Shown here: one piece after another, positions 11,166-24,661 of the stretch
Numbering within the stretch: position 1 is the first letter of the stretch
Layout of the letters: each line of letters begins with the position of its first letter
IMG/VR virus record: IMGVR_UViG_3300019776_000386
Location: 1 to 24,863 of that record
DNA length: 24,863 bases
DNA from: a virus
Strand: one strand, 5' to 3'
Made by a program: the position numbers and the translations under genes
Notes under the pieces: generated by a model
What the model was told of the DNA's origin: nothing
Databases searched by the model: none
The model's input: the letters and a program-made list of their open reading frames with translations, nothing else

Positions 11166-11602
11166 AATACATATTTTTTATATAACAATTCTATTGTTAA
11201 GGTTGATATTTCGTCAATTAATTCTTGTTCTTCTTTGTCGGTTATATTGAAATTATCCTCTCCATACTTTAAACTGATTTCGCTATACTTCCAATCACTA
11301 GAAAATATTTCTATTCCTTTTGATGTGTTAAAAATTTCAATTCCTTTCCATAATGCGCCAGTATCAATCAAATCTACTTCTCCCCCTGCTAATGGATTTT
11401 TAAAGTACTTAAAATCTTTGTATTCCGTATCTCGATAAACTCCTATTTTAGTTCCATCGGGTCTTTTACCTAATAACCAACGTTTGTGTATTAATTCTCT
11501 AATATTTGGCTCTTGTTCTAAAAATAAAGCATTGAAAGTACTATCAATATTTATTTTAACATTTTTTAAATCCTTTGCTAATATATCAGAGTATAATTCC
11601 AT
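11162..11602 (-). CDS. Tail/neck assembly protein, 146 aa
   Basis: 146 aa, alpha/beta. The middle part (GKRPDGTKIGVYRDTEYKDF, NPLAGGEVDLIDTGALWKGI) resembles phage virion-morphogenesis or tail-completion proteins in which a conserved DLxDTG turn follows a basic loop. It is the first gene after the major tail protein and overlaps the next gene by ATGA. A terminator-like hairpin (11608-11636) lies directly before its ATG, so its expression should be lower than that of the major tail protein. Family call moderate, from motif memory. Confidence 0.55.
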   Translation of the reverse strand: MELYSDILAKDLKNVKINIDSTFNALFLEQEPNIRELIHKRWLLGKRPDGTKIGVYRDTEYKDFKYFKNPLAGGEVDLIDTGALWKGIEIFNTSKGIEIFSSDWKYSEISLKYGEDNFNITDKEEQELIDEISTLTIELLYKKYVL

Positions 11603-11607
11603 CTTAT

Positions 11608-11636
11608 AAAAAACCCCCTCGTTAATGAGAGGGTTT
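11608..11636 (-). terminator. Intrinsic terminator after the major tail protein gene
   Basis: On the minus strand, a 10-bp stem (AAACCCTCTC pairing with GAGGGGGTTT, one G-U pair) closes a 6-nt loop (ATTAAC) and is followed by a T-rich tract (six Ts). It lies between the 300-aa major tail protein gene and the 146-aa gene, 5 nt before the latter's ATG. A partial terminator here would set a high ratio of tail tube protein to downstream assembly proteins. Confidence 0.8.
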
Positions 11637-11663
11637 CATTTGTTTAACTAGGTTAAGTTAAGA

Positions 11664-12566
11664 TTAATCTACGATTGTTAGAATGTTTGATGAACCTCCG
11701 TAAAAAGCTCCATCAATTTCAACTGATTCAAATCCGCTTTCAGCTATTTTCACTCCAAAAGTGTTACCATCTACAGTTGGTGCAACTAAATCTATAGTAT
11801 AACTTCCGTTTCCGTTAGCTGTAATAGCATCGATTGAAGATGTATTAATTCCTAAAACGCCCCATGAACTTGTAGAAGTCAATCCCTCAATAGGATTTCC
11901 TGAACATGAATCCGTTACTATTGCAGTAAATTGTGATAGTGATACCAAAGTCAACACAATTTTAGCTTCGATAATTCCTTTCAATTCTTTTACTTCGGCT
12001 AATGCATCGGTAATAGGTATTAAAGTCATTCCCTCGTTGTATTGGGTTGAACTTCTTAATTGTGCTTTTAAAGTTTTCATTTGCAAGTCTGCACCTTGTT
12101 TCAATTTAGTGCTTTCTGCGTGTAAAACGTTTAAATCAAACCCCACAAAGTTACCATTTGGTGCAGTTGCACAAATAATAGCATTTTCAAACACGTGCCA
12201 CAAATCCCAATTGTTAGATGTGTTGTTAATCTTTGAAATTGCTTTTGCCTCACAAATTGAAGCTGTAATATCAATCTCAAACATCGGTTTTCCTAGTCTT
12301 TGAAGTTGCATATTTCCAATACTGGAAGTGTTGACTTGGTTTTCTTCATGGTTGTTTCTATAATCGTATCCAGCAAATGGAATAAGATTGTTTTTTTTGA
12401 TAGCTTCTTTTAGTTGTGCTAAAAAAGTATCGTTGTTAGGTACAGATGTTCCTTTTTTAGAAACATAAGAACCTACATAATCGCCAGTGTTATAATTTCC
12501 ACATTCAGTTACGCCTGTAAAAATTTGCCCTTGGTCGTTGCAGTTGATAATTGTTAAATCTGCCAT
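11664..12566 (-). CDS. Major tail (tube) protein with C-terminal Ig-like domain
   Basis: 300 aa. The N-terminal ~200 residues lack cleavage signals and carry the segment FLAQLKEAIKKNNLIPFAGY and GNMQLQRLGKPMFEIDIT, similar in style to Bacteroidetes phage tail tube proteins. Residues about 203-300 (from IVLTLVSLSQFTAIVTDS, through WGVLGINTSSIDAITANG, to SNILTIVD) read as an added Ig-like beta domain rich in Gly, Thr and Ser. Such domains decorate the tails of many phages. The gene lies between the connector/completion genes and a strong terminator, as expected for a highly expressed tail tube. It forms the tube through which DNA passes. Function is from synteny and size. Confidence 0.75.
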   Translation of the reverse strand: MADLTIINCNDQGQIFTGVTECGNYNTGDYVGSYVSKKGTSVPNNDTFLAQLKEAIKKNNLIPFAGYDYRNNHEENQVNTSSIGNMQLQRLGKPMFEIDITASICEAKAISKINNTSNNWDLWHVFENAIICATAPNGNFVGFDLNVLHAESTKLKQGADLQMKTLKAQLRSSTQYNEGMTLIPITDALAEVKELKGIIEAKIVLTLVSLSQFTAIVTDSCSGNPIEGLTSTSSWGVLGINTSSIDAITANGNGSYTIDLVAPTVDGNTFGVKIAESGFESVEIDGAFYGGSSNILTIVD

Positions 12567-12578
12567 TTTTTTATTTTT

Positions 12579-13121
12579 TTAATTTATACATTTCGGTTTT
12601 ATTCGTAATTTAAAATCAACAATAATACAGTCTATCAAATCGATTTGAATTGATTTTTCTTTACTATTGTTCAAGTTTTTCAAGTCGTTTGAATCAGTAC
12701 TTATTCCGTAATTAGGCTCGGTTCTTAGTTTGAATCTAGTTTGTAAATCATTTCCCATTATCTCAACAAAGTTAGAAGATGTTAATTTTGATTTTACTAC
12801 TTGCCAAACTGGTTCTAAAATACCCTCGTAACTATTGCTATTTCTCCAGTCGTTCATTTCTTGCAGTCTTGTATCTTGCATTATTACAAGTTTAGCATCC
12901 GTTTCATACCATTCTTTATATTCAGTATATTCATTTAAAACGTACCAAACCAAAGGATATTTATCTGGACTGCTTTTTGTATTTTGCGCTGTTATCCATG
13001 CAATTAACTCTTTTTGGTCTCCATACCAATACTTAACAGTAACAGTTTTATCAGTTCCTAGCAGTCTAATATTTGCTGTTGCTCCAGCGAATAATCTCTT
13101 TAAAGCATTTGCAATTATCAT
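12579..13121 (-). CDS. Tail terminator / tail completion protein
   Basis: 180 aa. The central part (KYPLVWYVLNEYTEYKEWYE, KLVIMQDTRLQEMNDWRNSN, GILEPVWQVVKSKL) has the alpha/beta pattern seen in Bacteroidetes phage proteins encoded just before the major tail gene; this is the usual slot of the tail terminator. The ATG at 13121 overlaps the stop of the connector gene as ATGA. No membrane segment. The call relies on position and a recalled pattern. Confidence 0.6.
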   Translation of the reverse strand: MIIANALKRLFAGATANIRLLGTDKTVTVKYWYGDQKELIAWITAQNTKSSPDKYPLVWYVLNEYTEYKEWYETDAKLVIMQDTRLQEMNDWRNSNSYEGILEPVWQVVKSKLTSSNFVEIMGNDLQTRFKLRTEPNYGISTDSNDLKNLNNSKEKSIQIDLIDCIIVDFKLRIKPKCIN

Positions 13122-13741
13122 AATCCTAATGAATTTGAATTAGCTGTTAACTCAAAAGTATAAAGTTGAGGTGTTGGATAGTCTGTGGGATTATCGATTA
13201 AGAATTGCAATAAACTTACATAATTACTGTTTTGTTGCCCGTTAAAATAATCAACGAAAGTAGCTCCGTTAAAATATGATACTCTAGGGAAATTAATAAC
13301 ATTCAAGCCTTGATACATTTCTAAAAACTTATTCCAAACATTTACAAGATTGCTAGTAGGATTTATATTATCAGCGTTTTTCGCTTGTGTTTGATAGTTA
13401 CTTGAATCTAATTCATTTACCCAAAACCAATACGTATAATACGCTAATAACGAAACCTTAAAACTCCCTTCTTCATAGTTCAATCCTTTCCAAACTTTAC
13501 CGTCGTACTCTTTACCGTTTACTAAGTCTTTCCATTTCTGGTCTGCTCCTGAATCTAACACTCCATCTGTTACTTGTGAATCTAACTCACTAAAAAGAAC
13601 ATTTCCTAAAGCCATTTGTAATAACAAACGAGGCTTTTCATCTGCGTATAAATTCAATCTTTCAGCGTTACCGTTTTGGGAACTTGTTAAGTTCGGCACT
13701 GAAATTTCACGTGTAAAATTAGCCTCGTTTATTAAATACAT
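13118..13741 (-). CDS. Head-tail connector / neck protein
   Basis: 207 aa. The sequence is helix-rich with aromatic residues (FKVSLLAYYTYWFWVNELDS) and no enzyme motif. The N-terminal part (MYLINEANFTREISVPNLTS) and the position directly after the capsid genes match the adaptor or connector that caps the portal (gp6-like). Its start is 2 nt after the stop of the 55-aa gene, and its stop overlaps the tail completion gene by ATGA. Role inferred from gene order. Confidence 0.65.
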   Translation of the reverse strand: MYLINEANFTREISVPNLTSSQNGNAERLNLYADEKPRLLLQMALGNVLFSELDSQVTDGVLDSGADQKWKDLVNGKEYDGKVWKGLNYEEGSFKVSLLAYYTYWFWVNELDSSNYQTQAKNADNINPTSNLVNVWNKFLEMYQGLNVINFPRVSYFNGATFVDYFNGQQNSNYVSLLQFLIDNPTDYPTPQLYTFELTANSNSLGL

Positions 13742-13743
13742 TT

Positions 13744-13911
13744 TTACTTAGTTTTTTTTGTTTTTTTTACTTCTTCAATTCCTTTTAGTTTAGCTACTTT
13801 CAAATCATTAACAAAAATTTTTGAAATATCTCTACTAAAAGTCCTTACTTCTCCTTTTTTTACATTTTCAAAATCGGAAGTAAATTCTACTTCAATGTCT
13901 GATTTTGCCAT
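13744..13911 (-). CDS. 55-aa head-region protein
   Basis: Short gene: ATG at 13911, TAA at 13744, in the gap between the major capsid gene and the connector (10 nt and 2 nt away). The product starts MAKSDIEVEFTSDFENVKKG, continues as a small beta-type domain, and ends in a Lys-rich tail (EEVKKTKKTK). Many siphophages encode a small protein of about 55-60 aa with a VKKGE-type turn at this place, apparently linked to head completion, but its role is not known. Coding support comes from the tight fit between neighbours. Confidence 0.7.
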   Translation of the reverse strand: MAKSDIEVEFTSDFENVKKGEVRTFSRDISKIFVNDLKVAKLKGIEEVKKTKKTK

Positions 13912-13921
13912 ATTGTAAATA

Positions 13922-15115
13922 TTAAGACGCTAAGGTAGCCAAAGCGGTTGTAATGTTAGTACATTTTAAGAATCCAGTTTTGTCAACATTTCTGATTAAG
14001 AATAACAGTCTTGCGCGTGCTTTGATAGTTTTCATATCACCTACAAATTGTCCGTCGTTATAACCTTCTGAAAGCACAACTCCTCCTTTTTCGTAAATAG
14101 TACCAAAACGACCATCTCCTACAACTAATGTATTATCAGCTAAATTGTTATCTTCAACAATCGCCAAACCAGCAATAGTTCCTGTTTCTGCATCAAACAT
14201 ATAGTTATTATTAGCATCTTTTTTCAAGAAATATCTATCAATCGTATCTGAATTAGCAGTTACAAAGTTAGGAGAATATTTTGAACCTCTTGTTTTAACG
14301 ATTGCAGTTCTCATTTTACGAACCAAGTCTTTAATGTTAGCATCTGTAATTCCGCTTGCTACTGGTGTATAAGCTGGAGATGCTGTATAAAGACCCTCAA
14401 TGTCGTTTGAACCTCCAGCACCTACTGCAATTTTTGTATCAATTACTGTATTAACGTTGATTCCTACAAATTTTGCAAGTTCAGAACTAGCTAAAACTTC
14501 ATCTTCCATGAACTCCTCTGTTACTGGCAAAGTATCACCAATCTTTTGAAGTTTTTTAGTGTATTCAGCAAATTTTGCAGTACTTTCTGGAAAAGTTCCG
14601 CCTTCTGCAACAACTGCAGCAGCTCTAACTGTTGTAGATTCATCCCAGTCAATGTAAGCAATAGTTCCGTTGTGATTACCGTCTCCAACTTGTACTTTTG
14701 GAAAAAAATCATACAAAGCACGTCTTTTAACTCCTAATTGACCAATATCAGTTAGTCTTATTGCTTCAGTATTATTAGCAATGGATGCTCTGTTGGTTAG
14801 GGCTTTAATTTCTACTTCGGTAGATTTGTCACCGTTTGCAATAGCTTTAATCGCTTCTTTATTTTCGGTGATTTCTTCTACTAATGTTTTGGTATTTTCT
14901 TTACCTTTTTTATTAGCATCAACAATCTGTTTTGCAATTTCATCAGCTAAGAAATTTTTCAACGCTTCTTGGCCTGCTGTGATTTGAGCTTTTACCTCTT
15001 CGGTAATAGTTGTTTTTAAAAGCGAATCTTCGTGCGCTTTCATTTCTGTTTTGTATTGGTCTAACTGCTCTGGAGTTAGTTTTTCCAATTCTTCTGTTTT
15101 TTTGTAAACAAACAT
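13922..15115 (-). CDS. Major capsid protein, HK97 fold
   Basis: 397 aa. Residues 1-~110 are a coiled-coil delta-domain (EELEKLTPEQLDQYKTEMKA onward), which in HK97-type phages acts as scaffold and is removed by the protease. The mature region has the usual markers: the beta-hairpin/E-loop region near VGDGNHNGTIAYIDWDE, the P-domain stretch GDTLPVTEEFMEDEVLASSE (about 193-212), and the C-terminal A-domain with NTLVVGDGRFGTIYEKGG and KARARLLFLIRNVDKTGFL. The preceding gene encodes its protease. This is one of the firmest calls in the window. Confidence 0.93.
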   Translation of the reverse strand: MFVYKKTEELEKLTPEQLDQYKTEMKAHEDSLLKTTITEEVKAQITAGQEALKNFLADEIAKQIVDANKKGKENTKTLVEEITENKEAIKAIANGDKSTEVEIKALTNRASIANNTEAIRLTDIGQLGVKRRALYDFFPKVQVGDGNHNGTIAYIDWDESTTVRAAAVVAEGGTFPESTAKFAEYTKKLQKIGDTLPVTEEFMEDEVLASSELAKFVGINVNTVIDTKIAVGAGGSNDIEGLYTASPAYTPVASGITDANIKDLVRKMRTAIVKTRGSKYSPNFVTANSDTIDRYFLKKDANNNYMFDAETGTIAGLAIVEDNNLADNTLVVGDGRFGTIYEKGGVVLSEGYNDGQFVGDMKTIKARARLLFLIRNVDKTGFLKCTNITTALATLAS

Positions 15116-15128
15116 AGTTTTTAGTTTT

Positions 15129-16037
15129 TTAGATTATACTTAATTTTCTTTTACTTGTTTGAAGTGATTTCTCGGCTTCTAATTCTGAAAGTGATTTCTC
15201 GGCTTTCTTTTTATTTCCACATTTTTTGCAAACAATTTCTCCGTTTTCAGCTTCAAAATCTTCTGTTTCTTCATCGCATGAATCACATTTTGAGGTAGAT
15301 TTTTCAACTTCTGACTTTTGGTATATTACTGGAGTTGCATCATTAGAACCAAATAAAACAAGGCTTCCCTCTTTTTCTATACTTGCCTCGTCTATGCACC
15401 ACATATAACCATATTCTTTAGCTACATCTTTATTGGCTACTTCATCAATTCTAGCATCCCATAAGGCTTTTTGCTTTGCGTAGTCACTAGAAGTTGAATC
15501 AATTGCTAGTTGTACTTGAATATAACGCATTTTAACACTATTCTCAAAACTTATTTGTTCGTCAAATAGTTTTGCTATTTTTTCAATTTGAATTTTATTT
15601 TTAGGTATTTCAAAAATCAATGCTTGCGTAGTTCCGTTGTAATCACGTCCTAAATCGCTCCAGTTAACATTTTTAACAAATGCATTTACATCGTTAGGAA
15701 ATGCAATAACAGAATCAACTTCCAATTCATGTTCTAATACGTAAAATATCTTTTTTGATTTATCTTTTAAAGACTTATTCCAAAGATTAGGGAAGTGAAC
15801 ATCTCCATGACTGTCAAAGTAATTAGTAGTATTAATTATTGGATAAACAAAACCCTCTTTTACAAAAGATAATGCTTTCGTTCTTTCTGTTTCTTTTAAC
15901 CCAAATAATGAAACTGGCGGAGTATTTTTAATTGTAGCTTTTTTAAGTTCAATTATACTTTTTTCATTTTTTACTAATTCCTTAAAAAGTTTCTCTTTAC
16001 TAGAAAATTCTTTTTTCAATTCTTTGCAATAAATCAT
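15129..16037 (-). CDS. Prohead protease with C-terminal zinc ribbon
   Basis: 302 aa, directly before the capsid gene. The N-terminal domain fits the HK97-type prohead serine protease (S78): NYFDSHGDVHFPNLW, then the likely catalytic histidine in VLEHELEVDSVI (H103), and FENSVKMRYIQVQLAI with a candidate nucleophile Ser167. It would cut the delta-domain of the capsid protein during maturation. The C-terminal tail carries two CxxC pairs (C251/C254 and C270/C273, CDSC and CKKC), a zinc ribbon not usual for this enzyme. The start overlaps the 42-aa gene stop as ATGA. The active-site assignment is by eye. Confidence 0.8.
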   Translation of the reverse strand: MIYCKELKKEFSSKEKLFKELVKNEKSIIELKKATIKNTPPVSLFGLKETERTKALSFVKEGFVYPIINTTNYFDSHGDVHFPNLWNKSLKDKSKKIFYVLEHELEVDSVIAFPNDVNAFVKNVNWSDLGRDYNGTTQALIFEIPKNKIQIEKIAKLFDEQISFENSVKMRYIQVQLAIDSTSSDYAKQKALWDARIDEVANKDVAKEYGYMWCIDEASIEKEGSLVLFGSNDATPVIYQKSEVEKSTSKCDSCDEETEDFEAENGEIVCKKCGNKKKAEKSLSELEAEKSLQTSKRKLSII

Positions 16038-16162
16038 TTCTTAACTATTTTATTATTAGTCAATATGTCTCTTTTTTCTTTTAAGCTAGCTTTAAATTTA
16101 GGGTCTAAATCCTTTCTTTCTAACTGCTTATTTATTTCGTTTAATGAAATTTTAGTACTCAT
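16034..16162 (-). CDS. 42-aa basic helical protein
   Basis: ATG at 16162, TGA at 16034. The product begins MSTKISLNEINKQLERKDLD and is a lysine-rich helix. It sits between two genes with TAATG (upstream) and ATGA (downstream) overlaps, which strongly suggests a translated, coupled gene. Its first codons copy the start of the 56-aa gene before it (an 11-bp repeat at the two starts). Role unknown; by position it may assist portal or protease assembly. Confidence 0.65.
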   Translation of the reverse strand: MSTKISLNEINKQLERKDLDPKFKASLKEKRDILTNNKIVKK

Positions 16163-16332
16163 TATCTAATAGTTATTAGAGTTATAATTTTTTCGTTTGA
16201 TTCTGGTTTTATTTTATTATAACCTGATTTTTTTCTTAATTCTAACCATAAAATTAACTGGTCAATATATATTTCTTTTTCTAAATCAATATAAATATTT
16301 TCCAAGTCAATATTATTAAAATTAGTACTCAT
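16162..16332 (-). CDS. 56-aa hypothetical protein after the portal gene
   Basis: ATG at 16332, TAA at 16162. The product (MSTNFNNIDLENIYIDLEKE, then QLILWLELRKKSGYN) is a small helical acidic-to-basic protein. It overlaps the last codons of the portal gene by 11 nt and the next ATG by one base (TAATG), so it is part of the portal-protease-capsid operon. No known family was recognised. Confidence 0.65.
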   Translation of the reverse strand: MSTNFNNIDLENIYIDLEKEIYIDQLILWLELRKKSGYNKIKPESNEKIITLITIR

Positions 16333-17515
16333 AAATTTGTTTTAATTTAGTTTGTATAATTGAATCATCAACTCCTAATTCTTTAGCCAGTTTTAAACTT
16401 TCTAATTCAACTTTCCGATTATTAATTTTATCAACTTCAAAAACTGAATTAAAAGGCAAATGTTTAAGCGAACCTCTTAAATCTTGTTCACTCAATATGA
16501 CTTCATATGTATCTGTCATTTGTTGAACTTTAGGCAGTTCATTATAGTTAATAAATTTACCTAATGATTTTTCTTGGTTCTCATACGTGCTACCTTTAGA
16601 TAAAATATCAATAACGTCTTTAGGTATTCCGTACATATTAGCTACTTTGATTAAATCGCTTTCAAATGCTTCATCAAGTTTTAATTGTTCTAAATTAGAA
16701 ACCATTTGTTGCATTTCAACTTTTGATTTAGTAGCATTAATTTTACGACCGTACTCTAAACTGTTTTCAATACTGTTTTTTTCTGTTTCTGCCATTGGTT
16801 TTGATGTTGTATCTTTAACATCATGTTGACCGTTTACTAAGAACTTTTCAGTGTATTTTAAATTTGTGCCTTTACTTGTTAATGCTAAATCAGAATTTAT
16901 AGCTATTTGATACAAAGCATCCATTCTGCTATTACCTACTAACCAATTTCCCGAAACTCCACCGCTTAAATCAGTAAATACATAAAGATTTTCAAAATTC
17001 AACGTATCTACTTGACCGTTAGGGTTTGTATATTTAAACGTTCCTTTTTGCAAATTTTTTTTGTACTGACTACTAAATGAAATTTGACTAAATGCATTTA
17101 TTTGTTCAGTAGTAAAATTCAATCCCATTGGACGTAAATAATAATAAACTCCTTTAAAAACGTATAGATAAGCATTTCCACTTGCTAACCAAAATCTATG
17201 TTCCCAAAATAAATCAGTCCATGTTTGCCAGTCGTTTGGTGTTTTTTGAACTGAATATAAAAAATCTTTCTCAATTAATTTATCATTAAAATATTTGTCA
17301 ATTTTTACTTGACTGTATGTATCTGCTAAAAAACAAAACACTTTTAATATTGCTGGATTTGATAATATAACATCTAACTTTGACTGCTCTGATTTGAATC
17401 CTTTTCGTTTTCCAAAAAAACCATCAATAAAAGAATAAAACCAACTACCATCGCTATTTCTTTCGACGTAATTTGGTAAATTACTACTATAACCTATATT
17501 AAAATTAAATCCCAT
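16322..17515 (-). CDS. Portal protein (HK97 type)
   Basis: 397 aa, a usual size for HK97-type portals. Portal markers include the LASGNAYLYVF stretch at about 110-120, LVGNSRMDALYQIAINSDLA in the clip/stem region, and MYGIPKDVIDILSKGSTYEN toward the C-terminus. It lies between the large terminase and protease genes, the expected place. The dodecameric portal is the DNA entry channel and binds terminase. A terminator-like hairpin (17524-17562) ends 8 nt before its ATG, so its transcription is likely set by readthrough or an antitermination event. Confidence 0.9.
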   Translation of the reverse strand: MGFNFNIGYSSNLPNYVERNSDGSWFYSFIDGFFGKRKGFKSEQSKLDVILSNPAILKVFCFLADTYSQVKIDKYFNDKLIEKDFLYSVQKTPNDWQTWTDLFWEHRFWLASGNAYLYVFKGVYYYLRPMGLNFTTEQINAFSQISFSSQYKKNLQKGTFKYTNPNGQVDTLNFENLYVFTDLSGGVSGNWLVGNSRMDALYQIAINSDLALTSKGTNLKYTEKFLVNGQHDVKDTTSKPMAETEKNSIENSLEYGRKINATKSKVEMQQMVSNLEQLKLDEAFESDLIKVANMYGIPKDVIDILSKGSTYENQEKSLGKFINYNELPKVQQMTDTYEVILSEQDLRGSLKHLPFNSVFEVDKINNRKVELESLKLAKELGVDDSIIQTKLKQIYEY

Positions 17516-17591
17516 ATAATGACAAAAAACCTTTGCCAGTCGTAGAGAATAGCAAAGGTTTTGATTTAAAATGTGTTGTTTTTACGTTCAT
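17505..17591 (-). CDS. Possible 28-aa leader peptide across the portal hairpin
   Basis: An open frame from ATG 17591 to TAA 17505 encodes 28 residues (begins MNVKTTHFKSKPLLFSTTGK). It runs through both arms of the terminator-like hairpin and ends inside the first codons of the portal gene, in another frame. If it is translated, the ribosome would melt the hairpin and allow readthrough into the portal gene. It may also be chance, since it is short and largely set by the hairpin sequence. Confidence 0.25.
   Translation of the reverse strand: MNVKTTHFKSKPLLFSTTGKGFLSLYGI
17524..17562 (-). terminator. Terminator-like hairpin in the portal leader
   Basis: An 11-bp perfect stem (AAAACCTTTGC with GCAAAGGTTTT) closes a 15-nt loop; on the minus strand it is followed by more Ts (TTTTTT run). 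It is close to symmetrical, so it could act on both strands, but only the minus strand has genes. It lies between the large terminase gene and the portal ATG. Confidence 0.75.
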
Positions 17592-17598
17592 TTGTGAT

Positions 17599-17618
17599 AT
17601 AGTGCAACTTCACACTAT
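17599..17618. promoter_or_regulatory. Dyad (possible operator) in the terL-portal gap
   Basis: Perfect inverted repeat ATAGTG-(8 nt)-CACTAT. It lies 13-33 nt downstream of the candidate -7 box at 17632-17639, near the expected transcription start, a place where a regulator could bind DNA, or where the RNA could form a small hairpin. Function not shown. Confidence 0.35.
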
Positions 17619-17631
17619 TTAATATTAAAAG

Positions 17632-17639
17632 CAAATATA
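17632..17639 (-). promoter_or_regulatory. Candidate -7 promoter element for the portal operon
   Basis: TATATTTG on the minus strand matches the Bacteroidetes -7 consensus TAnnTTTG. No clear -33 TTG is seen at the usual spacing, so this is a candidate only. It would drive the portal, protease and capsid genes separately from the terminase genes. Confidence 0.4.
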
Positions 17640-17660
17640 TAAATATATTTTTATATTTTG

Positions 17661-18938
17661 TTAATTATTTTCAATAAATCTTCTACCGTATCGAATAGGG
17701 TCAATAATATCATCGAATGCTTTTATAACTTCATCATCAACTACTCCTAGCCTATCATTAGCATAAGAATAATTTTTAAACTCCAAATCAATTCCATCGC
17801 TAACATCTGTATAAACTACATTTGTTGACTGAAGTAATGTAATCCCAGCCATTACCGAGCCTTTTGGCTTGTCAATTCCTATTGCATATTCCCAACCATA
17901 ATCACGCAATAATAAAATATTATCAGGTACAGCACTATCGCAAACTATATCGGCATCGTATGGAATACCTAATTTTCTGAATGTATGAATAATAATACCA
18001 CCCTCGTTATTAATATTAGCTAATTCAATTGGTTCTAGTTTTGCTAATAATTCATTTTCACTAAAATAGTTTCGTTGATGGCAATAAAGGGTATTATTGT
18101 AACTATCGTATTTTAACTCAACTATTCCAAACTTATGGTTTTTACCCCAGTCAACTCCAAAAAATGATTTGAAAGGTAGTTTTATGAAATGTTCATAACT
18201 GCATCGTGTCCAATTAGTAAAAACACGTCCCTCAACTGCTTCTGTCCAACCTCCTAAAACAACTTGATTGTATTTTTTTTCATCTTTCTCTTTTAATTGT
18301 TGATAGTAACTAACGATATTATCTGCTAAATATTCACGCTCTACATCTAAATAACTTGTATGAATGTAACAAATATTATCTTTTATTAAATTACTACCAG
18401 CCTCAACATTCATTCCACTAAAAAAATGTCTAAATATCCAGTGATGGACACTAGCAGGATTTAATATAAGTATTGTTAAATTACGTTTATCTTTACTTCT
18501 AATAGACAAAAATACTTTTTCATAAGTTTCATAGTCTGTTAACTCTTCAGCCTCATCAACAACAAAACAATTAAAACCAAATAATGATTTTAAATTTGCT
18601 GTTTGCTGTTTTGAACCTGTTTTTATCCCTTTAAATGCTATTCTGTTTCCGTTGTTTTCAATATGCGTATTAGTTGAATTTACATATTTTTCATAATTCA
18701 ATAATTCTATTTTATCGTCAACTTCTGGCTTGATTGAATCTACAATAGAAACATTTGTAAAACGAGTATAAAGAACATTCCATTTATGTTGAACTAATGC
18801 TATCAAAGAAAATACTGAAATAACAAATGATTTTGCACTTCCTCTACCTCCCGTAATAATAACGGTGTCAACTTCTGGATATTTACCGTTTAATATTTCA
18901 AATAAAGGTTTGTATTTCTTTGAGAATTTAATCTGCAT
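17661..18938 (-). CDS. terL: Terminase large subunit
   Basis: 425 aa. The ATPase domain shows a Walker A GGRGSAKS (residues 30-37) and a Walker B FVVDEAEEL (D128-E129). The nuclease domain has the first acidic residue in FFGVDWGKNHKFG (D263), a second in IVCDSAVPDN (D334) and a C-terminal pair in KAFDDIIDPIRYG (about D409-D413). It cuts and pumps the DNA into the prohead. It overlaps the small-subunit gene by 11 nt and is followed by a non-coding gap before the portal gene. The gene symbol follows function; no specific known gene is implied. Confidence 0.93.
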   Translation of the reverse strand: MQIKFSKKYKPLFEILNGKYPEVDTVIITGGRGSAKSFVISVFSLIALVQHKWNVLYTRFTNVSIVDSIKPEVDDKIELLNYEKYVNSTNTHIENNGNRIAFKGIKTGSKQQTANLKSLFGFNCFVVDEAEELTDYETYEKVFLSIRSKDKRNLTILILNPASVHHWIFRHFFSGMNVEAGSNLIKDNICYIHTSYLDVEREYLADNIVSYYQQLKEKDEKKYNQVVLGGWTEAVEGRVFTNWTRCSYEHFIKLPFKSFFGVDWGKNHKFGIVELKYDSYNNTLYCHQRNYFSENELLAKLEPIELANINNEGGIIIHTFRKLGIPYDADIVCDSAVPDNILLLRDYGWEYAIGIDKPKGSVMAGITLLQSTNVVYTDVSDGIDLEFKNYSYANDRLGVVDDEVIKAFDDIIDPIRYGRRFIENN

Positions 18939-19368
18939 TATCAGTGTCTAAAAATACTATTGTTGGAGGTGTGTTTATAGTTTGACCATTTGAGGTAATA
19001 TCGGTTTTTGATGGAGCTTGAACTCCTAATATTCCAGCTATTGCTAATAATACACTCTTACATTCTCTGTAATCTTCTAAAGCATAGTTTTTTTGATATA
19101 AATCATAAAATTGATTTAAAACTTCATTTTTTTTATTTGAAGTATCGCAATCAATATTTGATTTTATTATTTCTCTTGCTTTACCTAAATATTCATCCGT
19201 TTGTCGTTCTCCTATTTTAAAGTTTTCGGAACAATACTGAATAATTTGTTTTCTTTGGAAACCTTGTAGTAACATTAAATAAATAGTGTTTACTCGTTTT
19301 TCCATTTCTGAACTATCAGATTTGTAAATATTAGTATTTCTTTTAGTATGTTTTTTATTAGTTTCCAT
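18928..19368 (-). CDS. terS: Terminase small subunit
   Basis: 146 aa. The first part is helical with an HTH-like segment (NTIYLMLLQGFQRKQIIQYC, then ERQTDEYLGKAREIIK), followed by a coiled-coil-like helix (NQFYDLYQKNYALEDYRECK) for oligomerisation and an unstructured acidic tail. This fits a DNA-recognising small terminase. Directly upstream of and overlapping terL. Family call from layout and position. Confidence 0.8.
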   Translation of the reverse strand: METNKKHTKRNTNIYKSDSSEMEKRVNTIYLMLLQGFQRKQIIQYCSENFKIGERQTDEYLGKAREIIKSNIDCDTSNKKNEVLNQFYDLYQKNYALEDYRECKSVLLAIAGILGVQAPSKTDITSNGQTINTPPTIVFLDTDNAD

Positions 19369-19378
19369 TATTTTTTAA

Positions 19379-19486
19379 TTAAAAAGGCACTGCGCCAGAA
19401 TCAAAAAAACTTTGTTGAGATGGAATATTTCTTCTACTTGCTGTTGTTCGTCCTCTAGTCGAACCTCCTTTTTTGCTTCTTGACAT
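19379..19486 (-). CDS. 35-aa Arg/Ser/Gly-rich protein
   Basis: ATG 19486, TAA 19379. The product starts MSRSKKGGSTRGRTTASRRN and ends with FFDSGAVPF. It is basic and likely unstructured in its first 20 residues, so it could bind nucleic acid. The gap to terS is 10 nt and to the upstream gene 4 nt, so it fills the space between two real genes in the same direction. The final residues recall the PF tip of the SSB-like protein in this phage. Function unknown. Confidence 0.55.
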   Translation of the reverse strand: MSRSKKGGSTRGRTTASRRNIPSQQSFFDSGAVPF

Positions 19487-19490
19487 AATT

Positions 19491-20291
19491 TTATTTTATT
19501 AAATTAAACAATTTTTTATCTCTTATACTTTTATTTATTGTTTTATATTTTTCAATTATTTTATTTTGATAATCTTTATTGAAATTGTATAAATCTTCGT
19601 TATCTTCAATTACAAATTGTTCTAAATTAGAACTTGACCTCATATTTACAGACCCATGTATAATTATATGTTTTCCTCCACTTGTTTTAATTTGATATGT
19701 TTTACAATGCGTTCCAGCAACTGCTAATTGAAAAATATCATTTTTATCTAGTTGAGAATATGTATTTTTTATTAGATTACTTCTTTCGTGTGCAAAGAAA
19801 TAATCTGAAACAATTAAATCTAATTTTTTAATATAATTAGCGTTTATTAAATTTTCTAAACTATCAATATTGTCTTGCGAATAAGATAACGTTGAAATAA
19901 TCATTTCTTCAACTAAAATATTATTTTCAACTATAAACGCTTCTATAAAATCTCCAAAAATAAAATTTCCACTTACTAAACAAAAAACTCTATCCAAATT
20001 TTTGAAATCAATATCTTTAACTAAATCAACTGCTTTTTCATATTTGAGTTTTTTGTATGGAATATCTTTTGTTTTAGGCGGTTTAATGTATCTGTTTTCA
20101 AAATTGTTGTTTAAATTAATACTTAATTTTGAAAAAGAATTGTTAAAGTTAAATTTTTTTTCATTAAATTCTATTTTTTCCATTTTCTCACTATAAGTCG
20201 CACATATTCTATCTAAATTATGATATTTTCTATTATACCATTCATTAACTGCTGGGTATGAAATAGGTTTTTGATTTATTTCAAAAAACAT
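19491..20291 (-). CDS. Phospholipase D-like (single HKD-type) protein
   Basis: 266 aa from the first ATG. Residues 195-197 (HCK) and the following GSVNMRSSSNLEQ block (213-225) fit the HxK...GSxN signature of the PLD superfamily, with E224 in the usual acidic place. The usual second HKD is absent, so it would act as a dimer, as do the short PLD nucleases. The N-terminal half is Asn/Lys-rich (YPAVNEWYNRKYHNLDRICA). The frame stays open and protein-like for about 36 codons upstream of this ATG without a standard start, so the true N-terminus may be longer. Related proteins occur in tailed phages with unclear role. Confidence 0.65.
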   Translation of the reverse strand: MFFEINQKPISYPAVNEWYNRKYHNLDRICATYSEKMEKIEFNEKKFNFNNSFSKLSINLNNNFENRYIKPPKTKDIPYKKLKYEKAVDLVKDIDFKNLDRVFCLVSGNFIFGDFIEAFIVENNILVEEMIISTLSYSQDNIDSLENLINANYIKKLDLIVSDYFFAHERSNLIKNTYSQLDKNDIFQLAVAGTHCKTYQIKTSGGKHIIIHGSVNMRSSSNLEQFVIEDNEDLYNFNKDYQNKIIEKYKTINKSIRDKKLFNLIK

Positions 20292-20410
20292 TTCATCAAT
20301 TTTAACTTTTAATGTTTCAAATTCAGCATCGCAATTTATTTCACATGATATGAATAAAAAAGTATAATTAAATATTTCATAGTTTTCAAAATTACAAAAT
20401 TAAATTAATA

Positions 20411-20623
20411 TTAAACAAAGTTAGGGTTATTTATTTTAGAATGATATATTTTATATCCTTTATTTTCAAATTCAAGTTTACCATTAAAATATAAATCTAG
20501 CTTGTGAGTAACATTAATAATACTACATCCTACAACCTCTGCAATTACTCTCATTGTATTATCATTTGAATTAAAATACAAGTCTAGTATTTCTTGATTC
20601 TTTTTGTCTGATAGTTTATTCAT
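20411..20623 (-). CDS. Small HTH protein
   Basis: 70 aa. Residues about 10-45 (EILDLYFNSNDNTMRVIAEV, then VGCSIINVTHKLDLYFNG) show a helix-turn-helix pattern with VIAEVVGCSIINVTHKL as turn and recognition helix. It probably binds DNA and may control neighbouring genes, or act as a small terminase-like or packaging factor. Its ATG overlaps the stop of the nuclease gene as ATGA. Confidence 0.6.
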   Translation of the reverse strand: MNKLSDKKNQEILDLYFNSNDNTMRVIAEVVGCSIINVTHKLDLYFNGKLEFENKGYKIYHSKINNPNFV

Positions 20624-21216
20624 ATCTGATAAGCATTATAATTATACTTACTATTCTTTTCTAAACTCATCCACTGTGCATAAGTCATAATTTGTTCAAA
20701 CTCTTTAAGTGTTTCTTTATGTGTTGCAACTACTTTGAGTTTAACGTCTGCGGATAACATTTTATACTGTTCCATAAATTCATCAAATGTTTTTGTGATT
20801 AAATAAATTCCACCAGCTTTGATAACTGATTTTTCGTATTGTTTCTGGGCTTGTGACTGTCTATCTTTACCTATTTTAATTTCAATTTTAACAGATTTAC
20901 CGTTAATAGTTGCACTTATATCCGCTGTTCCATTTGTGCTAGTTCCTTTAATATATTTAACACTCCCTATTGTTCTTTGCCTACCTAATACATCTGTTGA
21001 GATTTTAGTATTATCTATCACACGACCAGTTGAGCTAATTCGTTCCGCTTGATGTCCAGATAAATTAAGAAAATCAATCACGCATTTAGTCAATCCATTT
21101 GCAGTACTATCTGAATATTTAGGTTGTGGAATAGCGTGTTCTGGAAAAGTTGGATATTTAGCCTTTAAATCTTGTAAGGCTAAATTGGTTAGTATTTGTT
21201 TATTGTGTTTATTCAT
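20620..21216 (-). CDS. VRR-NUC nuclease (PD-(D/E)XK type)
   Basis: 198 aa. The catalytic core lies at about 95-135: GTADISATINGKSVKIEIKI, with D99, E112 and K114 as the D...ExK metal site, and a conserved glutamine region RQSQAQKQYEKSV after it, as in VRR-NUC enzymes. The N-terminal part has a small helical domain. Phage VRR-NUC enzymes are thought to act on branched DNA during replication, recombination or packaging. The gene is the first after the non-coding repeat block. Confidence 0.85.
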   Translation of the reverse strand: MNKHNKQILTNLALQDLKAKYPTFPEHAIPQPKYSDSTANGLTKCVIDFLNLSGHQAERISSTGRVIDNTKISTDVLGRQRTIGSVKYIKGTSTNGTADISATINGKSVKIEIKIGKDRQSQAQKQYEKSVIKAGGIYLITKTFDEFMEQYKMLSADVKLKVVATHKETLKEFEQIMTYAQWMSLEKNSKYNYNAYQI

Positions 21217-21235
21217 GTTAGTTTAAAATTAGTTT

Positions 21236-21335
21236 GGTTTACTAGTTTAGGTTTAAACCCTATTATATATAGGGTTTTAAACCATTAAACCAATTTAGTG
21301 GTTTAGTATACTGGTTTAATATAAACTAAACCACT
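21236..21335. repeat. Cluster of eight GGTTTA/TAAACC repeats with long dyads (candidate origin or operator array)
   Basis: Four forward copies of GGTTTA (21236, 21250, 21300, 21313) and four reverse copies TAAACC (21254, 21278, 21286, 21327) lie within 97 bp. Two large dyads overlap them: an 11-bp arm pair AGTGGTTTAGT / ACTAAACCACT (21297-21307 and 21325-21335), and AAACCCTA-(7 nt)-TAGGGTTT near 21255-21277, extended by outer GGTTT/AAACC with one bulged base. An 8-bp palindrome AGTATACT is at 21305-21312. The whole gap (21217-21364) is very AT-rich, has no gene and no clear promoter, and lies next to the ATPase gene. The layout recalls iterons of replication origins. Confidence 0.6.
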
Positions 21336-21364
21336 TTTTAACATTAATATTCTTATATTTAATA

Positions 21365-22447
21365 CTAAAAAAATACATTTTCTTCATCAATTTTAGTTCC
21401 TAAATAATATTTATTATCTGTTTGGCTTTTAAGTATATAAGACGTTTCAATTAACTCTTTAATATAATCTTTTGCGTTATTATCTCCTATACTTTCAGTA
21501 GATTTATTTAAAAAAGCTCTTTTAAAGTGGTCTAATAGTTGACCATATCCTATACCTATGTCGCTTGAAGTATTATATATATCGGTTAATATTTCAATTT
21601 TATAGGTTTCAAATAACTCTTTTTTTGATAGTTTTTTTAGTGGTTTATTGTTTATTTCAAAATCTGAAATATAAGGTATTCCATTATTGTCAATTTCAAA
21701 AGCAAAAGATTGAGGCTCTAAATTCCTACACATTTCAGGAGCAACTATTGAAACCATTTCATTATCTGTAGATTTACTAATACTAAGTACAGTTTCAGCC
21801 TTGTTATTTAATTCTGTACCAATATGACCCCTAGCATTATTATCACCTTTATTTTGATGTAAAACAGTTGTTATTAAAATGTTTCTTTCCTCACTCCATT
21901 TCATTAATTTAGAAACAATCATTGTAGCTTGTTCTTCATCATTAATAGAAGTTATAAGGTCTTTAATACCATCTATAAAAACAATTCCTAAATTTTCTGT
22001 GTTATAAATAGCATATTCAATCAATTCTAATCTTTCTATAGGATTTAATGAGCGCAAACCGTAAACATGTAAATTTGTAGGCTCTTTAATTCCAACAAGC
22101 GTACAAATACGTTTTAAAGCCATTTGAACGTGATATTTGCCTTGTTCCGTATCAAAGTATAAAACTGAATTTTTATTAGCTGGTAACTCATTTTTAAATA
22201 AATTAAAAATAGTATCTTTTGATATTGAAACGGAAATAGCCATTGTTATAAAAAAAGACTTTCGGCTTTTAGCTTTTCCAATAATTGATAAAATATTTCC
22301 TAGAGTTCCAATAGTTGCATTTCCGACACTCAAAGCAATTTCTGGATGTGGTATAACATCAGTTGCTTTAATCTCGTATTGAGATAATTTTATAGATAAA
22401 TCAGGTTTTTGATTTTCTTCTTTATGTATTATAATTGGTTCAAACAT
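21365..22447 (-). CDS. RepA/DnaB-like replication ATPase (AAA_25 type)
   Basis: 360 aa. The RecA-type fold is seen in order: a Walker A variant GKAKSRKS (57-64) in which the last Gly is replaced by Arg62, a conserved acidic pair after YFDTEQG (E101), Walker B in LGIVFIDGIKDL (D159), and TVLHQNKGD (H197-N199) as motif 3. This is the RepA-like/helicase-type ATPase family found in phages and plasmids, where it opens or loads on the origin. The C-terminal region (about 275-360) has a winged-helix-like pattern. It follows the 170-aa gene by an 8-nt overlap and lies directly before the repeat block. Confidence 0.8.
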   Translation of the reverse strand: MFEPIIIHKEENQKPDLSIKLSQYEIKATDVIPHPEIALSVGNATIGTLGNILSIIGKAKSRKSFFITMAISVSISKDTIFNLFKNELPANKNSVLYFDTEQGKYHVQMALKRICTLVGIKEPTNLHVYGLRSLNPIERLELIEYAIYNTENLGIVFIDGIKDLITSINDEEQATMIVSKLMKWSEERNILITTVLHQNKGDNNARGHIGTELNNKAETVLSISKSTDNEMVSIVAPEMCRNLEPQSFAFEIDNNGIPYISDFEINNKPLKKLSKKELFETYKIEILTDIYNTSSDIGIGYGQLLDHFKRAFLNKSTESIGDNNAKDYIKELIETSYILKSQTDNKYYLGTKIDEENVFF

Positions 22448-22952
22448 TATTTTTAAAGTTTTGAATTGATAAATTAATGTTTGTTTCTAAATTGTAAATT
22501 ATAGATTGTTTATCCCAATTATTACCACATTTAGCAAATTCAATTGAATTAAGTTGAGGTAAAGTATCTAAATATCTTTGATGTACTTCTTCTAATTCTT
22601 TAACTGTTTTATCTTTTAAAAAAGGGTCAAGTATTCGTTTTCTTTTAAAGTAGTTTCTTAATTCCATTTCTTTTGCTTTAATTAAAAGATATTCAATTCT
22701 TAAATCTATTGGTTCTGAAAGTATTTTATTAACTTCCTTGTTTGCCCTATCTAAATCAGTATAATGATTTGTAAATTCAGATAAAACAAAAGCATATAAT
22801 TTAGCAAATAATAAATTTTCTTGAATAACGTCAGTATTTTGCTTTTCAAAATATTCAGCTAATTTATTAAAAGCTTCAATATCTGTTTGATTTGGTTTAT
22901 TTTGTTTTGAAATAGTAAATTTCAATCTGTCGAAAGCTTGTTTAAGTTTCAT
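22440..22952 (-). CDS. Replication-region protein of unknown function, 170 aa
   Basis: 170 aa from ATG 22952; an in-frame TTG two codons earlier is less likely. The protein is almost all helical and rich in charged residues (KLAEYFEKQNTDVIQENLLF, LIKAKEMELRNYFKRKRILD), with no known motif. Its 3' end overlaps the ATPase gene by 8 nt, and it shares the same promoter. Such genes next to phage helicases often encode loaders or adaptors, but no family was identified. Confidence 0.6.
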   Translation of the reverse strand: MKLKQAFDRLKFTISKQNKPNQTDIEAFNKLAEYFEKQNTDVIQENLLFAKLYAFVLSEFTNHYTDLDRANKEVNKILSEPIDLRIEYLLIKAKEMELRNYFKRKRILDPFLKDKTVKELEEVHQRYLDTLPQLNSIEFAKCGNNWDKQSIIYNLETNINLSIQNFKNNV

Positions 22953-22960
22953 AATCAATA

Positions 22961-22999
22961 AAAAGAGAAAACCCCTAACTGTGGTAGTAGTTAAGGGTT
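22961..22999 (-). terminator. Terminator-like hairpin in the leader of the replication genes
   Basis: On the minus strand, AACCCTTAACT pairs with AGTTAGGGGTT (11 bp with one U-G), loop ACTACCAC, followed by TTTTCTCTTTTT. It ends about 9 nt before the ATG at 22952. The loop holds CTACCAC, the complement of a segment upstream in the same leader (23044-23050). It may act as an attenuator. Confidence 0.75.
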
Positions 23000-23009
23000 G
23001 TTCTCAGTG

Positions 23010-23050
23010 TTTAGGTTTGTAGCCTAAAATATCTTTAAACAATCTACCAC
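23010..23050 (-). promoter_or_regulatory. Leader segment able to pair with the terminator loop, with an internal hairpin
   Basis: GTGGTAG (minus strand, 23044-23050) lies 11 nt after the -7 box and is fully complementary to the loop of the downstream terminator. Between them, TTTAGG and CCTAAA (23010-23015/23023-23028) form a 6-bp hairpin. Together they make an attenuator-like or pseudoknotted leader. Confidence 0.45.
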
Positions 23051-23061
23051 GTTTGTTTTGT

Positions 23062-23069
23062 CAAATATA
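23062..23069 (-). promoter_or_regulatory. Candidate -7 promoter element for the replication genes
   Basis: TATATTTG on the minus strand fits TAnnTTTG. A T-rich tract is upstream; no good -33 TTG is visible. The expected start of transcription is near 23055, about 100 nt before the coding start, and it follows the terminator of the upstream operon, as a promoter should. Confidence 0.45.
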
Positions 23070-23070
23070 C

Positions 23071-23126
23071 AAAAAAATAAATAAACCGCCCCATGTTCAT
23101 AAACTTAATTACGAACCGAAGCGGTT
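23071..23126 (-). terminator. Terminator after the SSB-like gene
   Basis: On the minus strand AACCGC pairs with GCGGTT (23121-23126 with 23084-23089), with a 31-nt loop that holds a smaller AACCG/CGGTT hairpin, followed by TTTATTTATTTTTTT. It would end the recombination operon just before the next promoter. The long loop makes it weaker than the other terminators here. Confidence 0.5.
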
Positions 23127-23139
23127 GTTTTATAGTACA

Positions 23140-23475
23140 TCAGAAAGGCAAATCTGGAGTACTATCAGGAACTTGACCGCTAGGTGTTGATGATGTAGTT
23201 ACTGATTGACTTAATTTTTCAATTTTCCAACCTTGAAGATTTACATACCATTTGCCTTGATATTCATTTCCTCGAATATTAACGTTAATTTTAACCTCAT
23301 CATTTAGATTGTATTTATCTAATATTTCGCATTTATCCTGTACAAAATCAACAGGTATTTGTTGACTGTATTGCTCATTTGTAGCAATTACAATTAATCT
23401 TTTTTTGAAAGTTCCAGCACTTCCTACTACTTCTGTGTTACCAATATGGATAACTTTTCCAATTACTTCGCTCAT
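23140..23475 (-). CDS. DUF3127-type ssDNA-binding (SSB-like) protein
   Basis: 111 aa. An OB-fold pattern (VIGKVIHIGNTEVVGSAGTF, RLIVIATNEQYSQQIPVDFV, NDEVKINVNIRGNEY, KWYVNLQGWKIEKL) matches what I know of DUF3127, a short SSB-like family of Bacteroidetes. The C-terminus is a flexible Ser/Thr/Pro linker ending in PDLPF, which is the SSB acidic-tip pattern used to recruit partner proteins. It likely coats ssDNA made by the exonuclease encoded just before it (gap 2 nt), so it joins the recombination module. Confidence 0.8.
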   Translation of the reverse strand: MSEVIGKVIHIGNTEVVGSAGTFKKRLIVIATNEQYSQQIPVDFVQDKCEILDKYNLNDEVKINVNIRGNEYQGKWYVNLQGWKIEKLSQSVTTSSTPSGQVPDSTPDLPF

Positions 23476-23477
23476 TT

Positions 23478-24089
23478 TTAAAACTGTTTATTATTAATTA
23501 AATACTCTTTAAACTCTTCTTTTAATTTAGTAGCATCTTCAATACGACTTTTAATCAAATTAATTATATTTTCGTCTCTTTCAACTACTATTTCGTGCCA
23601 CATCTCTTTGCCATTAAATATTAAATAATTAAAGAAATGCGCTTTAATTGAATTAGTACACATCATTTGCATTTGCATTTGATAAATATAGTCTTTATCA
23701 ATTATGCTATCTTTAACTAATTTAAAAAACTTTGTATTTCTAGGACATTTAATCTCTAAAATAGCATCGTTTGAAACCAAACCATCAGGACTAGCACCAG
23801 CATTTTGACCGTAAACAAAAAAAGAACACTTTTGAACATCTATAAATTCTAATTCTTTAATTGATTTAAACTTTTCAAAAGCCATTGGTTCTAAATTAAT
23901 ACCTCGTTGCATATCATAGGATATGAAATCGCTATCCTCTTCAATTCCAAAAACCTCTTCACAAGCTAATTCAAAAGCATAATTTTCACCAGTTAACCCT
24001 AATCCTTTAACTCCCATTAATTCACTAATCCTAGAAGCTGTAAACCTACCTTTTCGGATATCATACCATTCTTTACTTCGTTGTTGCAT
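23478..24089 (-). CDS. YqaJ-type exonuclease of the recombination module
   Basis: 203 aa. Signature motifs are RFTASRISELMG near residue 15, GINLEPMAFEKF (E67), the metal site GASPDGLV (D102) with AILEIKCPR (E112, K114), and YIYQMQMQMMCT (Q137-Q141), in the order found in YqaJ / lambda exonuclease-type enzymes. It would resect double-stranded ends 5' to 3' for single-strand annealing during replication or recombination. It overlaps the upstream gene by 17 nt and precedes the SSB-like gene, so it forms a recombination operon with both. Confidence 0.9.
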   Translation of the reverse strand: MQQRSKEWYDIRKGRFTASRISELMGVKGLGLTGENYAFELACEEVFGIEEDSDFISYDMQRGINLEPMAFEKFKSIKELEFIDVQKCSFFVYGQNAGASPDGLVSNDAILEIKCPRNTKFFKLVKDSIIDKDYIYQMQMQMMCTNSIKAHFFNYLIFNGKEMWHEIVVERDENIINLIKSRIEDATKLKEEFKEYLINNKQF

Positions 24090-24570
24090 AACTTAAATAT
24101 AAAGATTCAATTTCGGGCGAAATGGTATAAACTTCTTTAATTTGTTCAATAGAAATTCCTTTCTCAAAAGTAGCTTTTATTTTATCTTCAGTAAAAATTG
24201 GTTTAACTTTATTTATTATCGGTTGTACTGGTTTTATACGAATACCCCCTACAACTTCACCTTTCATTTTTACAGATTCATCGCAATACAATTCAATTAA
24301 AACGTTTTCCCAGTCCTCAACAAACGAACTTCCTGTAAACGCTTTAATTTGTTTCGCGTTGGTTGCATTTAAAACCATTGGTTTAATCGGCTCCACAAAA
24401 TAGGCTATGTTAGCATCTATTTTTTTGCCAGCAACAGAAACCCCTAATTGCTGTTTAACTTCTTTAACTGTAAAGATAAGTTTTTTACCCTCTTCAATTA
24501 AATCTTCTAAATCTGCGATACCTAAATGGTCGCTTTTGTACACTTTTCTGAAATGATGTTTTTCACTCAT
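24073..24570 (-). CDS. Conserved phage protein of the recombination module, 165 aa
   Basis: Start taken at ATG 24570 (MSEKHHFRKVYKSDHLGIAD); a longer frame from TTG 24606 would translate the leader hairpin and is rejected. The middle (KPMVLNATNAKQIKAFTG, VEDWENVLIELY, KGEVVGGIRIKPVQP) resembles a short phage family usually found next to phage exonucleases or RecT, in which NxTN, a tryptophan and IRxxP form a beta-type core. No annealase motif was identified. The C-terminus is helical with a KGISIEQIKEVYTISPEIE stretch. The first gene of the operon, it overlaps the exonuclease gene by 17 nt. Confidence 0.65.
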   Translation of the reverse strand: MSEKHHFRKVYKSDHLGIADLEDLIEEGKKLIFTVKEVKQQLGVSVAGKKIDANIAYFVEPIKPMVLNATNAKQIKAFTGSSFVEDWENVLIELYCDESVKMKGEVVGGIRIKPVQPIINKVKPIFTEDKIKATFEKGISIEQIKEVYTISPEIESLYLSYATTK

Positions 24571-24583
24571 AATTCTATAAATT

Positions 24584-24643
24584 AAAAATCCCTCAATGAC
24601 CGCCAAGACAAAGAGGGATAGTTAATATTTTTATCTTTGGCGG
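24584..24643 (-). terminator. Leader with terminator hairpin and alternative pairing
   Basis: On the minus strand, ATCCCTC (24613-24619) pairs with GAGGGAT (24588-24594), an 18-nt loop between, followed by TTTTTAATTT: a terminator 13 nt before the ATG. Its loop contains CTTGGCGG, complementary to CCGCCAAAG upstream (24635-24643; one bulged A). The two pairings interlock, so they either compete or form a pseudoknot. Confidence 0.6.
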
Positions 24644-24653
24644 ATTTGTTATG

Positions 24654-24661
24654 CAAATGTA
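24654..24661 (-). promoter_or_regulatory. Candidate -7 promoter element for the recombination operon
   Basis: TACATTTG on the minus strand fits TAnnTTTG. It lies after the stop of the methyltransferase gene and 10 nt before the first segment of the leader structure. There is no clear -33 TTG. Confidence 0.45.

Follow-up and report, generated by a model that had tools for sequence, protein, structure and literature searches.

ColE1 replication is controlled through an intermolecular kissing complex between RNA I and RNA II. The repC gene of the staphylococcal plasmid pT181 has a transcription attenuator in which the kiss is made with an antisense RNA in trans (PMC4878617), and T4-type homing endonuclease genes (I-TevI, segB, mobE) are controlled by RNA hairpins (PMC2988022). 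The regulation of transcription in Bacteroidota phages has been little explored. We describe here phage leaders in which two loops of one RNA, one of them a terminator loop, are predicted to kiss ahead of the gene.

The DNA analysed (the window), a virus record, comprises 24,863 bases, and all of its main genes lie on the minus strand. At the DNA level, the cultured phages closest to it belong to the Lillamyvirus/Muminvirus group of Flavobacterium phages; for the large terminase, the nearest cultured relative is Olleya phage Harreka_1 (83% identity). The window encodes a portal protein (PF04860), a 146-aa tail protein (phrog_6195), a DUF3127/SSB-like protein, a YqaJ nuclease adjoining a 165-aa gene, and an AAA_25 protein downstream of a 170-aa gene. 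The intergenic region (21217-21364) that separates the AAA_25 protein from the gene next to it is rich in GGTTTA/TAAACC repeats and holds a large AT-rich palindrome of the GGTTTAAACCCTATTATATATAGGGTTTTAAACC type; similar repeats occur in the relative L041. This region is possibly a replication origin.

Four hairpins ahead of start codons

According to the original prediction for this DNA, terminator-like hairpins stand just before the portal, 146-aa, 170-aa and 165-aa genes; all four were found, on the minus strand. They do lie close to the ATG, though at about 7-17 nt rather than the 5-13 nt claimed (portal, 10 nt; 146-aa gene, 7 nt or more; 170-aa and 165-aa genes, 17 nt each). We judged the hairpins real on the basis of their folding z-scores (tail -5.3, portal -3.8, 170-aa -2.3, 165-aa -1.9) and their conservation in relatives. 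A simple count of terminator-like sites (7 found, 3.9 expected, sd 2.2) was near chance and was dropped as evidence; the long loops of the portal and 165-aa hairpins kept them out of that scan.

As also predicted, TAnnTTTG boxes precede three of the hairpins (17639-17632, 23069-23062 and 24661-24654), the 146-aa tail gene being without one. In these three cases, relatives preserve the whole set: the box, a short leader, the terminator and the start codon. Premature termination, which had been proposed for several modules, is therefore well supported for the portal, 170-aa and 165-aa genes, but not for the 146-aa gene, which is preceded by an ordinary post-gene terminator. The four hairpins are three different things: a plain terminator, a late portal leader and two kissing leaders. 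The features of the first two classes are as follows.

11610-11637 (core 11633-11616), minus strand: ordinary terminator separating the 300-aa gene from the 146-aa tail gene (ATG at 11602)
17632-17639, minus strand: TATATTTG box of the portal (late) leader
17599-17618, minus strand: 5' hairpin ATAGTG[TGAAGTTG]CACTAT of the portal leader, with conserved GTGAAG and a covarying stem
17526-17562, minus strand: terminator hairpin of the portal leader (portal ATG at 17515)
17505-17591, minus strand: short ORF beginning ATGAACGTA, which overlaps the portal start and whose stop position differs among relatives

The terminator ahead of the 146-aa gene lies directly 3' of the stop of the 300-aa gene, whose product is probably the major tail protein, and hairpins are present at the equivalent place in relatives L011, L004 and L013. 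It would reduce the expression of the downstream tail genes.

The portal leader, common to at least 13 relatives, is a separate late-gene class with its own 5' hairpin. Both sides of the stem of this hairpin changed, in a compensating manner, in 4 of 6 pairs, with GTGAAG constant, and the terminator covaries as well. Distant relatives keep the box before the portal gene but not the hairpin. No loop pairing was found in the portal leader. The covarying stem and the conserved GTGAAG are observed features; the loop, GAAGnn, may resemble lambda boxB. The start of the short ORF (ATGAACGTAAACAC; MNVNTN/MNVKTT) is conserved and the ORF extends into the terminator; it may encode a leader peptide or reflect conservation of the RNA itself.

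Complementary loops in the 170-aa and 165-aa leaders

The strongest feature of the locus, missed by the original prediction, is a complementarity between two loops, GTGGTAG/CTACCAC in the 170-aa leader and CCGCCAA/TTGGCGG in the 165-aa leader. Only these two of the four sites have this kissing architecture, and their pairing sequences differ. We call the 5' hairpin P1, the terminator hairpin P2, and the complementary loop segments A and A'.

170-aa leader
23062-23069, minus strand: TATATTTG, a Bacteroidota-type -7 box, at a constant distance before A in relatives
23037-23058, minus strand: P1, 5' hairpin AAACAA[ACGTGGTAGA]TTGTTT, 6 bp, kept in L041
23044-23050, minus strand: A, GTGGTAG, in the P1 loop, exact complement of 22987-22981
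23010-23029, minus strand: middle hairpin TTTTAGG..CCTAAA in the long linker
22970-22999, minus strand: P2, 11-bp terminator hairpin followed by a T-rich run, ending 17 nt before the ATG (22952)
22981-22987, minus strand: A', CTACCAC, complementary to A, in the 8-nt loop of the terminator
22443-22952, minus strand: 170-aa protein of unknown function, without Pfam or PHROG match

165-aa leader
24654-24661, minus strand: TACATTTG box
24633-24645, minus strand: weak P1 (ATC..GAT) around A
24637-24643, minus strand: A, CCGCCAA, exact complement of 24606-24600
24588-24619, minus strand: P2, terminator hairpin ATCCCTC..GAGGGAT followed by a T-run, ending 17 nt before the ATG (24570)
24600-24606, minus strand: A', TTGGCGG, in the terminator loop, exact complement of A
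24076-24570, minus strand: 165-aa protein, phrog_21613, unknown function

In relatives L109, L112, L114 and L121, P1 of the 165-aa leader is stronger (AAT[CCGCCAAG]ATT), and the leaders of orthologues carry other complementary pairs instead: CCGCCAAG/CTTGGCGG, GGTCAGA/TCTGACC and AAGTAGTGAG/CTCACTACTT. On the plus strand, TAnnTTTG boxes are present inside both kissing leaders of the window (23012-23019 and 24632-24639); these might be antisense promoters, as in plasmid attenuators, or could be due to chance.

Three tests were used to compare the complementarity with chance. In the first, 99 leaders were selected by box, terminator and following ORF alone, complementarity being unused. A complement of at least 7 nt between the early transcript and the terminator loop was present in 49 of them, as against a mean of 1.96 and a maximum of 7 when loops were swapped between leaders (300 swaps), and none for direct repeats. 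The second, a strict scan of 2.05 Mb, gave 58 matches versus 0-1 in each of ten dinucleotide shuffles; the same scan gave no match in five control phages. In the third, we scanned the collection for TATATTTG followed by GTAGA-N7-CTAC. This is an independent prediction test, since the loop sequence was left unspecified. Among the matches listed, at least 65 distinct sites had enough downstream sequence. An exact complement of N7 was found 33-56 nt downstream in 59 of these 65 listed sites (swapped control, 0.27; upstream control, 0). Among the same listed matches, all 59 complements lay in a hairpin followed by a T-run, and an ORF followed in 58 of the 59. The 6 listed sites of 65 without an exact complement resemble coding sequence. 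Loop sets of related phages do not count as independent events. The combination of box, 5' hairpin and complementarity to the terminator loop is a widespread architecture in Bacteroidota phages.

In an alignment of 54 leaders from the third test, which took only exact complements and from which G-U kisses would drop out, the kissing helix was 99.7% paired (shuffles, 74.5%; slid partners, 24-54%), with both-sided changes in 6 of 7 pairs, 85 double-change cells and no one-sided change. A second, small alignment showed the same pairing pattern. Covariation extended to the terminator stem and to the short apical stem that carries the kissing loop, indicating that all helices are conserved together. 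Cultured sister phages provided a compensatory double change, GTGAGACG/CGTCTCAC in lillamy and snork corresponding to GTGGAACG/CGTTCCAC in mumin and snusmum. Two complementary hairpin loops with covariation, as expected of an RNA kissing complex, are present. The P1 and P2 loops are thus firmly predicted to form an intramolecular kissing complex.

The order of elements is the TAnnTTTG box, P1, an A-rich linker, P2 with A' in its loop, a T-run and, 6-50 nt on, the start codon. A begins mostly 8-14 nt past the box, which places P1 at the extreme 5' end of the transcript; a -35-type element is weakly visible (TTG at 18-22 nt in 22/49). Both loops commonly consist of A plus 7 nt (about 8 nt) and are closed by a stem. 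A RAANAYWTT-like motif recurs in the linker (30/67, versus 8.5 shuffled). P2 exists in two forms. One, seen in the 170-aa leader, is a continuous long stem tipped by the kissing loop, in most cases with a long linker that contains an extra hairpin; in the other, found in most leaders, a purine-rich internal loop separates the terminator stem from a short apical stem. Median linker length was 37 with unbroken P2 (n = 9) and 24 otherwise (n = 117; p 0.005). A G+C-containing stem followed by a T-run, as in intrinsic terminators, was found in all 59 leaders of the independent set. The terminator is located between the promoter and the gene start and the whole is conserved as a unit, the arrangement of a cis attenuator as read from sequence.

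Sequestration of a Shine-Dalgarno sequence by the stem was not found, the stem stopping before the T-rich spacer and the start codon. Shine-Dalgarno sequences are mostly not used in Bacteroidota. Three other ideas were abandoned: general pairing between A' and the start of the gene, 6-7-mers being at chance level (5/67); a simple H-type pseudoknot or pure antiterminator for all leaders, A and A' lying in the loops of conserved small hairpins; and a protein operator or DNA palindrome, A differing among the leaders of one phage and the terminator stem containing G-U pairs.

Proposed mechanism and alternatives

We propose that the kissing leader acts in cis as an attenuator and that the kiss aids closure of the terminator, a reading to which we assign a probability of about 0.6. 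Transcription would start a few nt past the TAnnTTTG box and P1 would fold first in the nascent leader. On leaving RNA polymerase, the P2 loop would kiss P1, the terminator stem would close more readily, and termination at P2 would release a leader RNA of roughly 65-105 nt. If the kiss failed, was outrun, or was broken by a phage or host factor, the polymerase would continue into the gene. The proximity of P2 to the start codon may additionally hinder translation. As to the direction of control, it is most likely that the kiss helps rather than hinders termination. We favour kiss-assisted closure on two grounds: the helices are all conserved together, and each hairpin loop is closed by a stem of its own. 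The loops of about 8 nt and the longer linkers associated with unbroken P2 also suggest that kiss and terminator coexist. Against this reading stand the faintness of the -35-type element, the weak P1 of the 165-aa leader, the nested fold of the latter and the linker geometry.

The last two points bear on the possibility that the kiss is instead an antiterminator. A:A' would form while the 3' arm of P2 is still to be transcribed and would delay or block closure, so that read-through would be the default and capture of P1 would switch the gene off. A:A' is indeed made before P2 can close. In the best nested (pseudoknot-free) fold of the 165-aa leader, an extended A:A' helix replaces the terminator; this minimum free energy fold would be hard to combine with the terminator, and because of it the antiterminator keeps some weight. 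Some linkers look short for a full rod (8/122 under straight-rod geometry), and in a ring-closure test of rod versus linker, the linker shortened as P2 grew, a sign opposite to that expected. Loop pairing in cis activates translation in some plasmid rep leaders. Yet the extension of A:A' is not kept in relatives L114 and L121, and the conserved short stems that flank both loops fit two coexisting hairpins, so that we consider the antiterminator improbable, though the most serious competitor of kiss-assisted closure.

A still less probable reading is that termination is incidental and that the leader chiefly yields a stable small RNA, or else shields the 5' end of the readthrough mRNA and adjusts its translation. 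The stretch from start to terminator forms a single compact module, the 5' end of which lies in P1, and every kissing leader of the independent set has a terminator. However, the ORF that directly follows the module in nearly all of this set favours control in cis. Furthermore, loops differ within one phage (6-mers shared in 0/19 pairs versus 74/2192, not significant), which argues against a common trans target and is consistent with orthogonality of the loops within a phage. Lastly, following the original prediction, which suggested a possible shared phage factor, a single phage antitermination factor could act at all four hairpins. Box, leader and terminator do recur in three leaders, and the portal loop may resemble boxB; the sites belong, however, to three unlike classes and no candidate antiterminator protein was found, leaving the idea of a factor common to four operons unsupported and very unlikely.

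A broader reading can be put forward, tentatively and with distinctly less confidence. The leaders would be a class of switch RNA restricted to phages, with the intramolecular kiss between P1 and the terminator loop as the regulatory contact. The address would be free to drift or be diversified, many orthogonal copies per phage would have spread with homing endonucleases, and a common phage or host signal would read the conserved linker and internal loop.

Occurrence and relation to known systems

The genes following the leaders often encode homing endonucleases, helicases and replication or recombination proteins. Among 97 downstream proteins were about 28 HNH (NUMOD4) endonucleases, 7 GIY-YIG endonucleases and 6 DEAD/ResIII helicases, the others including primases, replication proteins and the 165-aa family. 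Cultured carriers include Lillamyvirus, Muminvirus, phage 11b and Olleya phage Harreka_1; Cellulophaga phi10:1 also carries a kissing leader, with a weaker box. The element precedes an HNH endonuclease in 34 database records of Flavobacterium sp. LMO6 and LMO9 phages. When HNH relatives were sampled gene first, it was present in 3 of 13, two of them near-identical. In 299 genomes of the host genus, the box-plus-P1 pattern occurred in one contig, plus once by apparent chance. Kissing elements were not found in the crAss001 half-genome or in B40-8.

Some variants were observed in passing. In L129 (Riemerella phage PJL1), the complementary segment of a leader at 30229-30400 is 15 nt long (TGTTAAACCATCGTG). 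Of these nucleotides, 12 are found again at the next gene's start codon, and the terminator loop could therefore pair with either partner; this is possibly a start-codon-sequestering variant. L090 has at 18885 (minus strand) a leader-like sequence whose loop complement measures 12 nt and whose terminator stem is very long, with no ATG ORF right after it. A family of small proteins of 60-77 aa (MAKFELKF...LDKSTAIKFAKTLRTEIN; phrog_33177) often begins 41-52 nt after the leader (L029, L041, L051, L053, L061, L067, L118 and L128), several members being preceded by a conserved TTAATAGTTTATCGGTAATCTTAA-like spacer. In L041 a member of this family separates the leader from the 170-aa homologue; the window has lost it.

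The covariance models of Rfam 15, riboswitches included, gave no family match at gathering score. No description of a kissing-loop leader was found in the open literature searched, and the words terminator, promoter, hairpin and transcription are absent from the paper on the LMO6/LMO9 phages. The element can be detected from sequence alone with high precision and is present in cultured phages; as its loops can be changed independently while pairing is kept, its role is directly testable. It ties the control of free-standing homing endonucleases to that of replication genes.

As in pT181 repC, an intrinsic terminator lies in the leader ahead of the gene, and the outcome would be decided by kissing between loops together with flexible interior loops. 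In pT181, however, the antisense kiss occurs in trans and a separate antiterminator sequesters a terminator arm, whereas here both loops belong to one RNA and one of them is the terminator loop. As with the T4-type endonuclease hairpins, phage homing endonuclease genes have their own promoter and a strong hairpin just 5' of the start codon; yet the T4-type hairpins sequester the ribosome binding site, no terminator or kissing loop has been described for them, and their hosts and sequences are unrelated to those of the kissing leaders. Metabolite riboswitches also combine a cis leader, a tertiary loop contact and a terminator. In contrast with them, the loops of the kissing leaders vary freely, complementarity alone being kept, and the downstream genes are phage DNA-metabolism genes. 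A 7-bp loop-loop helix between two hairpins is likewise found in ColE1 RNA I/RNA II, but in the kissing leaders it is intramolecular and coupled to a terminator. Both attenuators and kissing loops were already known (PMC4878617); what appears to be new is an intramolecular kiss with a terminator loop, recurring ahead of phage genes in copies whose sequences drift, which would add an intramolecular kissing-loop design to the known attenuators, as well as a natural set of orthogonal RNA parts.
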